From Megalodesulfovibrio gigas DSM 1382 = ATCC 19364 (lineage in GTDB: Bacteria > Desulfobacterota > Desulfovibrionia > Desulfovibrionales > Desulfovibrionaceae): 64,000 bases of DNA. Positions 61,285-64,000 of this stretch are shown here, piece after piece (position 1 is the first letter of the stretch; each line of letters starts with the position of its first letter). Location of the stretch: positions 3,466,432 through 3,530,431 of the forward strand of contig NC_022444.1 of NCBI RefSeq assembly GCF_000468495.1, given 5' to 3'. Made by a program: the position numbers and the translations under genes. The notes below the pieces were generated by a model. The model saw only the letters and a list, made by a program, of their open reading frames with translations. It ran no database searches and was not told the DNA's origin.

Positions 61285-61802
61285 AGCATTTTAATCTTGA
61301 AAAAATCTATATCCGCAGGAGGCAAACCACCCTTTTGCGTCCTGGGCTGTGACGGCATCCAGGGCCGTGGCAATGGCTTTGAGCAGTGTCTCTTGCGAAC
61401 GAGCCTTTATGGATCGTAAGATCTGCTTTACTTTGCTCCACATCTTTTCAATGGGATTGAAATCAGGGCTGTATGCTGGCAGAAGAAGCACTCTTGCGCC
61501 TCGTTGTTCTATGAGTACTATAACTTTTTGGTCTTTATATGCAGAAAGATTGTCCATTACGACAACGTCGTCGTCGCGGAGGCGTGGTGCAAGCATTTTT
61601 TCTCTATTTATGCGGAAAATTTCAGCGTTAACAGCACCATCAAAGACAACGCATTCCGTACTTCCATCCAGTCGAATGGAAGACAGCATGGTCGTCGTTT
61701 TCCAATGGCCATGTGGGGCGGCGTCCACGCAACGATTGCCATAAAGCGCTCGACCATAGAGGCGGGTCATATTCGTTTTGGCGCTGGACTCATCCAGAAA
61801 GG
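61284..61802 (-). mobile_element. Truncated IS630 copy
   Basis: 519 bp matching 1779-2297, from the left inverted repeat (GAGCATTTTAATCTTGAAAA) to CCAGAAAG in the catalytic domain. The HTH part and right end are missing. The transposase fragment (up to 171 codons) is identical over the overlap. The flank is CA rather than TA, so the target duplication is not preserved. Confidence 0.92.
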
Positions 61803-61843
61803 GCACCCTGGAAATTCGATGGCGTCTGCGCTACACTTCGTCA

Positions 61844-61917
61844 TGGCGGGCGTCTCTTTGATTTCTAGTCTAGGCAACTGAAATCTAACAAAAAAAGAGA
61901 CTGCCCGCCACTTTTTT
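61844..61917 (+). terminator. Large bipartite hairpin with T tract
   Basis: TGGCGGGC-G-TCTCTTT pairs with AAAGAGA-CT-GCCCGCCA, and GATTTC with GAAATC inside. Six T follow. It stands between the IS remnant and the sulfite reductase leader. Confidence 0.75.
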
Positions 61918-62044
61918 GTGCAATATGCGGGCTAGCACCAGCTCCGACGATTTTCGGGCATTTCTTGACCTGCATCATGGGCAGGTGCACCGCCCTGCCC
62001 TATGGTCGGCTCCAGACCAATACATCCATCACCAAGGAGCCGCC

Positions 62045-62698
62045 ATGACCGCCGTCCCCGGAGCCATCCAGCAGCGCGACAAGACCACCTGGGCCATGAA
62101 GCCCCGCGCCCCCATGGGCATCGTCACCCCGGACGAACTCCGCCGCATTGCCGATGCCGCCGCCGCCCACGATGTGCATGCCCTGAAAATCACCTCCGGC
62201 CAGCGGCTCATCCTGCTGGGCATCCCTGAGGATCGCCTTGCCTCCCTGCAGGAAGCCCTGGGGCCCATGGGCCAGCTCTGCCGCAATTACGTGCAGGCCT
62301 GCCCCGGCACGGACCACTGCAGCCACGCCGTGCAGGACTCCCTGGCCATGGGCAGACAACTCGAAGCGCTGGTGTTCGGCCGGGAGTTTCCGGCCAAGGT
62401 CAAGCTGGGCGTCTCCGCGTGCCCGTTCTGCTGCGCGGAAAGCCAGGTGCGGGATATCGGCCTGGTGGGCCGGCGCAAGGGCTGGCACGTGTATGTGGGC
62501 GGCAACAGCGGCACCAAGCCCCGCGTGGCCGATCTGCTGGCCACGGACCTGAGCGATGCCGACGCTCTGGACCTCGTCCGCCGCTTCCTGGATCACTACG
62601 CCGCCACCTGCGTGGGCAAGGTGCGCGTGGCCCGGTTTGTTCAACAGCAGGGCCTGGAAGCCATCCGCACCGCCCTGGGACTGCCTGCCCCGGCCTGA
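62045..62698 (+). CDS. Assimilatory-type low-spin siroheme sulfite reductase
   Basis: A 217-residue protein, ATG 62045 behind AAGGAG. Cys86-X5-Cys92 (ACPGTDHC) and Cys126-X3-Cys130 (ACPFCC) provide the siroheme-[4Fe-4S] site in CX5C...CX3C order. Length and motifs match the small (~27 kDa) monomeric sulfite reductase of Desulfovibrio vulgaris. It reduces sulfite to sulfide in the cytoplasm; its physiological role in dissimilatory organisms is not settled. The DsrE-like selenoprotein follows 58 bp downstream, probably co-transcribed. Confidence 0.9.
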   Translation: MTAVPGAIQQRDKTTWAMKPRAPMGIVTPDELRRIADAAAAHDVHALKITSGQRLILLGIPEDRLASLQEALGPMGQLCRNYVQACPGTDHCSHAVQDSLAMGRQLEALVFGREFPAKVKLGVSACPFCCAESQVRDIGLVGRRKGWHVYVGGNSGTKPRVADLLATDLSDADALDLVRRFLDHYAATCVGKVRVARFVQQQGLEAIRTALGLPAPA

Positions 62699-62756
62699 GC
62701 TTTACCACATTAAATCCATAGATTATGCTGATGCAAACCGCACAGGAGCATCGAGC

Positions 62757-63077
62757 ATGCAAATACTGTTGATTCTCTCCAGCAACGATCCGGAAATCAA
62801 ATGGAACGCCCTGCGCTTCGGCAATTTTCTGCTCAACGAAGGCGAGGAGGTCTGCATTTTCCTCAACGGCCCGGCCGTGTCCTTGTATGATGGCGACAGC
62901 GGCCAGTTCCCCATCGCCGAGCAGGCCAAGCTCTTTGCCCTGAGCGAAGGCGTGCTGGCCGCCTGAGGCAAGTGCATGGGCATCCACGGTGTGGATGCAA
63001 TCGAACACGCAGCCCTCTCCACCATGAAGTTCCTGTACGCCCAGATGCAGCAGGCGGACAAGATTATCTCGTACTGA
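62757..63077 (+). CDS. DsrE-like selenoprotein with UGA-encoded Sec70
   Basis: Read through an in-frame TGA at 62964-62966, the frame gives a 106-residue DsrE/TusD-like protein (MQILLILSSNDPEIKWNALR at the start). The TGA falls in LAA-U-GKCM, a U-x-x-C motif at the position where DsrE-family proteins have their active cysteine. The sequence after the TGA stays protein-like (MGIHGVDAIEHAALSTMKFL) to TGA 63075. A bSECIS hairpin begins 13 nt after the codon. ATG 62757 has AGGAG 8 nt upstream. Stopping at the TGA would give only 69 residues. It probably carries persulfide sulfur with the adjacent sulfite reductase. Confidence 0.85.
62980..62998 (+). promoter_or_regulatory. Bacterial SECIS hairpin
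   Basis: GCATCCAC-GGT-GTGGATGC is a perfect 8-bp stem with a GGU loop. The loop lies 21 nt after the TGA, within the usual distance for SelB binding. Confidence 0.85.
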
Positions 63078-63141
63078 CGCCCGCGCCCCAGCGCCCCACC
63101 CGCGCTGACAAAAAAAATGCGGCCAGGCGAGAAAGTTTCTT

Positions 63142-63170
63142 GACACCCACCCCTTCGAGGGGTAGACACC
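63142..63170 (+). promoter_or_regulatory. tRNA promoter
   Basis: TTGACA (63142-63147), 17-bp spacer and TAGACA (63165-63170), 11 bp before the tRNA. Confidence 0.65.
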
Positions 63171-63181
63171 ATCTCTCGCGT

Positions 63182-63258
63182 CGGGATGTAGCGCAGTTTG
63201 GGAGCGCACCTGAATGGGGTTCAGGGGGTCGAAGGTTCAAATCCTTTCATCCCGACCA
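63182..63258 (+). tRNA. tRNA-Pro (GGG)
   Basis: A 77-nt cloverleaf: acceptor CGGGATG/CATCCCG, D arm, anticodon stem CCTGA/TCAGG with loop ATGGGGT (anticodon GGG), T arm with GGTTCAAATCC, and encoded CCA. Confidence 0.95.
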
Positions 63259-63272
63259 CAGATTTCCCCAAG

Positions 63273-63314
63273 AAAATGGGCCGGTTAACTGACAAGGTTG
63301 ACTGGCCCATTTTT
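63273..63314 (+). terminator. Terminator after tRNA-Pro
   Basis: AAAATGGGCC and GGCCCATTTT form a stem ending in a T run. Confidence 0.75.
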
Positions 63315-63572
63315 CGTTGCTGTCAACCTCCTGGTGAACCTCTGGTTGACCGGGGTGTTGGAGTGAACTGTTTAAGCAACTGTAATCACTGTGTATGATG
63401 GTGTATGAAAGGGATGAAGTCTGCCCCCTAATTTCCCGGGTGCTTCAGACATCCTTCTGCTATTTCCTCAGACATGCTCCAACACCGTATGAGACATGAG
63501 GTACGGGGTGCTGTTTCATTTTGGGCGTATCTTTGAAAAAAAGGAGGGACCTTTCTGCCCCTCCGTGTCCAG

Positions 63573-63748
63573 CTAATCCAGTTCAGGTAGCAGGGCCGCA
63601 GCCCGTTCCTCATCACCGGGCATGATGTGCCCGTACCTGCCGAGGGTCATGGACGGATTGCTGTGCCCCATCATTGAACTGACCGTCCTCACCGATGCGC
63701 CCTTTGACGTGTAGAGTTCAGCCACACTATGATGGTGAATGGTGGGAG
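63573..63748 (-). pseudogene. Tyrosine recombinase (integrase) C-terminal remnant
   Basis: On the minus strand TIHHHSVAELYTSKGASVRT, then VSSMMGHSNPSMTLGRYGHI, carries the His, GH and nucleophile Tyr of a phage-type integrase and ends at TAG 63573. The N-terminal domains are absent. It lies 0.3 kb from tRNA-Pro, the usual place for an island integrase. Confidence 0.8.
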
Positions 63749-63753
63749 GTAAA

Positions 63754-64000
63754 ATGAGAGCACTTTCTGTTTCTTTTATGAACGATTTGTTGGATAGAGA
63801 CGGGATACTATATTCTCTTGTGGAACGAATTAGGCATGATCACACCTTAATGCTTTCAATTAGAAAAGATTTTATCAATGTTTACTATCGTGGTGGAAAT
63901 ATCTTGAGGATAAAGGAAAAAGGTTCTGGTTGCTACAGCTCATTCTTTGATTTTAACTACAATAGACTAGATGCCCCATGCCCAACACTTCCAGATATAA
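63754..64000 (+). CDS. Unknown protein, N-terminal part (continues beyond window)
   Basis: ATG 63754 with GGGAGG 4 nt upstream opens an AT-rich frame (82 codons seen; LMLSIRKDFINVYYRGGNIL). No domain is recognised with confidence. Base composition marks it as foreign to the surroundings. Confidence 0.6.
   Translation, partial: MRALSVSFMNDLLDRDGILYSLVERIRHDHTLMLSIRKDFINVYYRGGNILRIKEKGSGCYSSFFDFNYNRLDAPCPTLPDI

Follow-up and report, generated by a model that had tools for sequence, protein, structure and literature searches.

The window analysed here, a stretch of 64,000 nucleotides from the genome of Megalodesulfovibrio gigas DSM 1382 (D. gigas), carries on its plus strand, at 62757-63077, the gene of a DsrE-like protein of 106 residues whose codon 70, an in-frame UGA, is almost certainly decoded as selenocysteine (Sec), as judged from sequence comparison. 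The gene was defined from its translation, a match to the DsrE domain PF02635, its relatives and a predicted structure, and these results confirmed the original prediction of an in-frame TGA and a hairpin in a DsrE-like selenoprotein gene. As the best explanation overall, we consider it very likely that the product is a selenoprotein of DsrE fold in which Sec70 may serve as sulfane-sulfur nucleophile.

The reading frame consists of 69 codons, a TGA at 62964-62966, 36 further codons and a second TGA at 63075-63077. It is preceded by a Shine-Dalgarno-like AGGAG at 62744-62748 (plus strand), 8 nt 5' of the ATG, and a search by consensus found no promoter for it. Translation of 62757-63077 with read-through gives MQILLILSSNDPEIKWNALRFGNFLLNEGEEVCIFLNGPAVSLYDGDSGQFPIAEQAKLFALSEGVLAA-U-GKCMGIHGVDAIEHAALSTMKFLYAQMQQADKIISY-stop, where the first TGA (plus strand) opens a UxxC motif, UGKC. 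Downstream of this TGA, GC3 was 0.83 in the selenoprotein frame versus 0.50 and 0.33 in the other frames. Comparison with the same-genus relative revealed 10 silent and 2 replacing differences in the 36 codons that follow the TGA, and 18 silent and 6 replacing differences in 68 codons before it. Because the relatives run through the TGA and these counts resemble those of the preceding part, the stretch after the TGA is, by its substitution pattern, coding and conserved. The frame and both TGAs had been predicted exactly, and the relatives conserve the C-terminal part that had been expected to be conserved.

Matches to the window protein were found in 21 of 59 relative genomes. The 247 family genomes gave 65 strong matches (E below 1e-20), and 61 of these contained exactly one in-frame TGA. 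A scan of named genomes, for which we used the closer alignment set A2 since the broader set A1 was too diverse, recovered 44 loci; the TGA occupied the same codon in 41 of the 42 full-length ones, the remaining locus (L103) having Cys. Homologues ending at the TGA, named at the outset as evidence that would speak against a selenoprotein, were not found among the relatives compared, and the TGA is kept in about 60 genomes, its position being constant in the Sec relatives. Alignment with Cys homologues, proposed as a check, placed Cys exactly at the Sec70 column in all three of them (L018, L019 and L103), with CGTC replacing the UGKC of the window protein. No relative of the selenoprotein gene was found in viral contigs, and plasmids contained only distant DsrE relatives, 32-34% identical and annotated as DsrE family protein.

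The TGA is followed on the plus strand by a perfect hairpin (GCATCCAC/GGT/GTGGATGC, 62980-62998), a putative bacterial SECIS (bSECIS) element identified as an inverted repeat, by covariation and by the published bSECIS constraints, with 8-bp arms at 62980-62987 and 62991-62998 and a GGT loop at 62988-62990. The predicted stem and GGU loop were thus found, although the 21 nt given as their distance from the TGA is that to the loop, the stem itself starting at 13 nt. In the published bSECIS model, the loop has 3-9 nt with a G in the first two, the stem 4-16 bp, and the UGA lies 16-37 nt from the loop; the loop GGU, the stem of 8 bp and the distance of 21 nt all fall within this description. An 8-bp hairpin of such geometry follows 4 of the 1732 TGAs in the window (0.2%), and the folding energy of the hairpin by itself is unexceptional (z = -0.9) and uninformative. 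Among 52 distinct sequences, 98.6% of the pair cells were standard, double-change cells numbered 38 versus 15 in shuffles, and none of the slid pairing registers approached the true one in covariation. The third base of codon 76 and the first base of codon 80 were combined as C-G in 38 sequences, T-A in 12 and T-G in 2 (Fisher p = 4e-10, relatedness not corrected for); because that third base is silent, part of the covariation cannot stem from protein constraint. The hairpin was absent from both Cys homologues that were folded (n = 2), and the D. gigas SelD gene, which has its own in-frame TGA, contains a hairpin of identical geometry, with an 8-bp stem and a GGA loop at nt 21-23.

The window protein matched PF02635 with E = 3.4e-7 and 30.9 bits (gathering score 22.7), and 48 of the 53 family members scanned matched this domain too. 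AlphaFold, with an input alignment of 53 family sequences, modelled the read-through chain with a mean pLDDT of 98.3 over its whole length. In this model the residues after 70 form two helices plus two strands, one of them short and the other the last in the sheet, so that a chain of 69 residues would lack part of the domain. The best matches among solved structures were Escherichia coli YchN (1jx7), DsrE of DsrEFH (2hy5_A) and relatives from Sulfolobus and Bacteroides, 3mc3 and 2fb6 being among the matches; both domain and fold therefore bear out the predicted DsrE-like identity.

A second copy of the selenoprotein gene, identical in the gene, exists in D. gigas as part of an inverted duplication that spans 8 kb or more and whose copies are 99.3% identical and 1.35 Mb apart. 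The duplication comprises window positions 61915-64000 and beyond (G000:C2:3528346-3536329 versus 2179070-2187009), and one of its edges could not be placed, the other copy being masked there. Since the same-genus genome has the flank of the other copy, the window copy is, on this comparison, the derived one. Also included in the duplication are a sulfite reductase-like gene, a tRNA-Pro and an integrase-bearing element, and 382-bp repeats (96%) beside the tRNA-Pro look like attachment-site copies. Adjoining the duplicated segment, a frame on the minus strand (61291-61806) resembles, by eye, a fragment of an IS630-type transposase. Another genome of the family also has the selenoprotein gene twice (L139 and L140, G250:C1:880569 and 3862497), again through an inverted duplication, this one 12.4 kb or longer with 99.9% identity, and a relic duplicate (L118, G111:C1:4107134-4107241), consisting of the last 36 codons and the hairpin, lies approximately 200 nt 3' of an intact gene.

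Standard tables stop at the TGA, which could be a normal stop codon or have arisen by a nonsense point mutation, leaving a 69-residue product or a decaying gene; one of two genome copies could indeed decay, and L088, one of the 41 TGA loci, is damaged elsewhere, further downstream. Nevertheless, the TGA is retained across many genera, the part downstream is conserved and codon-constrained, the hairpin covaries, both D. gigas copies are identical in the gene and the fold needs the full length, making this reading extremely improbable. We rejected an ordinary stop because homologues run through the TGA, and a recent nonsense mutation because the TGA is common to both D. gigas copies and all close relatives.

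The absence of selA, selB or selC from the genome had also been named as grounds for discarding the prediction, and selA, selB, selD and tRNA-Sec (anticodon tca) were all found in D. gigas, selB scoring 350 bits together with its neighbours in the frame. When 32 Sec-type relative genomes were checked, selA was present in 28, and 3 more, without a SelA match, had selB and tRNA-Sec. In the exception, G009 (95% complete, 3 contigs), the gene (L009, G009:C2:796176-796493) keeps the TGA and an intact hairpin, and we found SelD only, with no SelA, SelB or tRNA-Sec; the assembly may have a gap there, or the Sec trait may have been lost. SelA was likewise not found in a Nanoarchaeota MAG with the Cys form. 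SelB and tRNA-Sec would read UGA codon 70 as Sec at the hairpin that follows. Near-cognate read-through, inserting Trp or Cys, is an alternative to Sec at this UGA, which is predicted from sequence, but we give it a negligible chance, because homologues carry Cys at exactly the UGA position, the genome combines the SECIS with an entire Sec system, and the relative genomes show the distribution of selA, selB and tRNA-Sec given above.

To place the protein among known DsrE-fold systems, we compared it with YchN, DsrE, TusD and YedF. YchN has the same fold (TM 0.85) at 18% identity, and in a profile alignment, counted by hand, Sec70, located at a strand end, aligned with YchN Cys78 and Cys73 with YchN Cys81; the Cys78-x-x-Cys81 motif is therefore in the same position, but YchN has Cys where the window protein has Sec. 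We take YchN Cys78 to be the equivalent of Cys78 of DsrE and TusD. In these two proteins, Cys78 is an essential sulfur-binding residue (PMC3397948). DsrE of DsrEFH and TusD of TusBCD resemble the window protein in fold (2hy5_A, TM 0.77) and, we consider, in that one essential Cys carries the persulfide; they differ in forming heterohexamers with DsrF/H or TusB/C, whereas the window gene stands alone. No dsrF/H or tusB/C partners adjoin the selenoprotein gene, which has no conserved neighbours beyond the genus, and DsrEFH is said to be missing from sulfate reducers (PMC3397948). The C-terminal DsrE domain of YedF shares a CGxC motif and is weakly matched by the Cys homologues, but our family is without the SirA-like domain, the Cys homologues reach 24-33 bits versus a cut-off of 110, and the YedF model TIGR03527 did not match the window protein.

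The nearest upstream gene (62045..62698, plus strand) encodes a small sulfite reductase-like protein (NIR_SIR_ferr + NIR_SIR; PF01077, E = 9.7e-22; PF03460, E = 2.6e-15) and ends 58 nt 5' of the selenoprotein gene. This adjacency recurs in the same-genus genome and in none of the other loci examined; since the only neighbour is conserved in the genus alone, the context says little about function. When gene neighbours were clustered across loci, every cluster obtained was antisense or attributable to chance.

A tree of 53 proteins has a supported branch, one side of which consists of the 48 close Sec members. The Cys homologues (n = 3) and a distant Sec group (L020 and L022) fall outside this main clade, the joining point of these long branches being uncertain. 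L020 and L022, from two family genomes, represent a second DsrE-like selenoprotein group (YV-U-GVCM) with its own hairpin. UxxC occurs in 30 of the 48 rows of the main clade, and the resolving position is Ser in 5 rows and Leu in 13 (18/48; the 13 include L091, U-GKLI), with Sec and hairpin intact in these UxxS and UxxL members and Sec constant in all 48 rows. The partner Cys has thus been lost in steps (UxxC, UxxS, UxxL) among the Desulfobacterota relatives, with Sec always kept, a pattern that appears to be new. Because Ser or Leu takes the resolving position while Sec never changes, it is Sec that stays constant and the partner that is optional.

Reviews class DsrE-like selenoproteins as UxxC, and most such proteins are treated as redox enzymes; this label implies an oxidoreductase of thiol-disulfide type, with Sec70 and Cys73 as a selenenylsulfide redox pair, and agrees with the UGKC of the window protein and the UxxC of the majority of main-clade rows. 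We regard a redox pair as possible though rather doubtful, since the rows with Ser or Leu form a supported part of the clade and retain Sec and hairpin; with UxxS and UxxL members in the same clade, the Sec-Cys pair is not essential to the chemistry of the family as a whole. Sequence pattern and analogy with DsrE and TusD would instead favour, at about even odds, a single nucleophile holding sulfane sulfur over an obligatory Sec-Cys redox pair, and a single-nucleophile role of Sec70 in sulfur transfer has, in our estimate, an equal chance of being right or wrong. Most likely, Sec70 would act as the nucleophile that takes up sulfane sulfur and then hands it on, or reduces it; Cys73 could resolve the intermediate intramolecularly in UxxC members, and an external thiol would have to do so in the UxxS and UxxL relatives. 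More tentatively, with a probability just short of even, the DsrE-like selenoproteins of Desulfobacterota would be a single Sec-only clade in which Sec is the sole active chalcogen, so that the family would carry or reduce sulfane sulfur by means of selenium instead of acting as a UxxC redox protein.

DsrE-like selenoproteins had, as the original prediction stated, been predicted earlier, in publications of 2005-2008: UxxC forms from the Sargasso Sea in 2005 (PMC1088965), a D. vulgaris protein in 2006 (PMC1794560), and two groups, 'DsrE 1' and 'DsrE 2', in the 2008 GOS study (PMC2398784). DsrE-like UxxC selenoproteins (WP_014524487.1) also appear in reviews of 2022 and 2026, and the latter points out that pipelines often truncate selenoprotein genes. 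Compared by description, the published proteins share with ours the PF02635 domain, UxxC, a bacterial SECIS and sulfate-reducer hosts, and the window gene is very probably a new, or perhaps already listed, example of this kind. The D. gigas genome paper mentions 9 selenocysteine-containing proteins (PMC4287179), which may include it. As D. vulgaris was not among the 44 loci recovered in the named-genome scan, its published protein could come from a sister group, for example L020/L022. In the published lists of DsrE-like selenoproteins consulted (2008 GOS, reviews), no UxxS or UxxL subfamily was found.

Together, our results settle how this gene of a model sulfate reducer is read, and they supply a robust alignment of the family with more than 50 distinct members. 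Loss of the partner Cys in steps while Sec stays constant amounts to a natural experiment by which two mechanisms of UxxC selenoproteins can be told apart, both testable with small, well-folded proteins.
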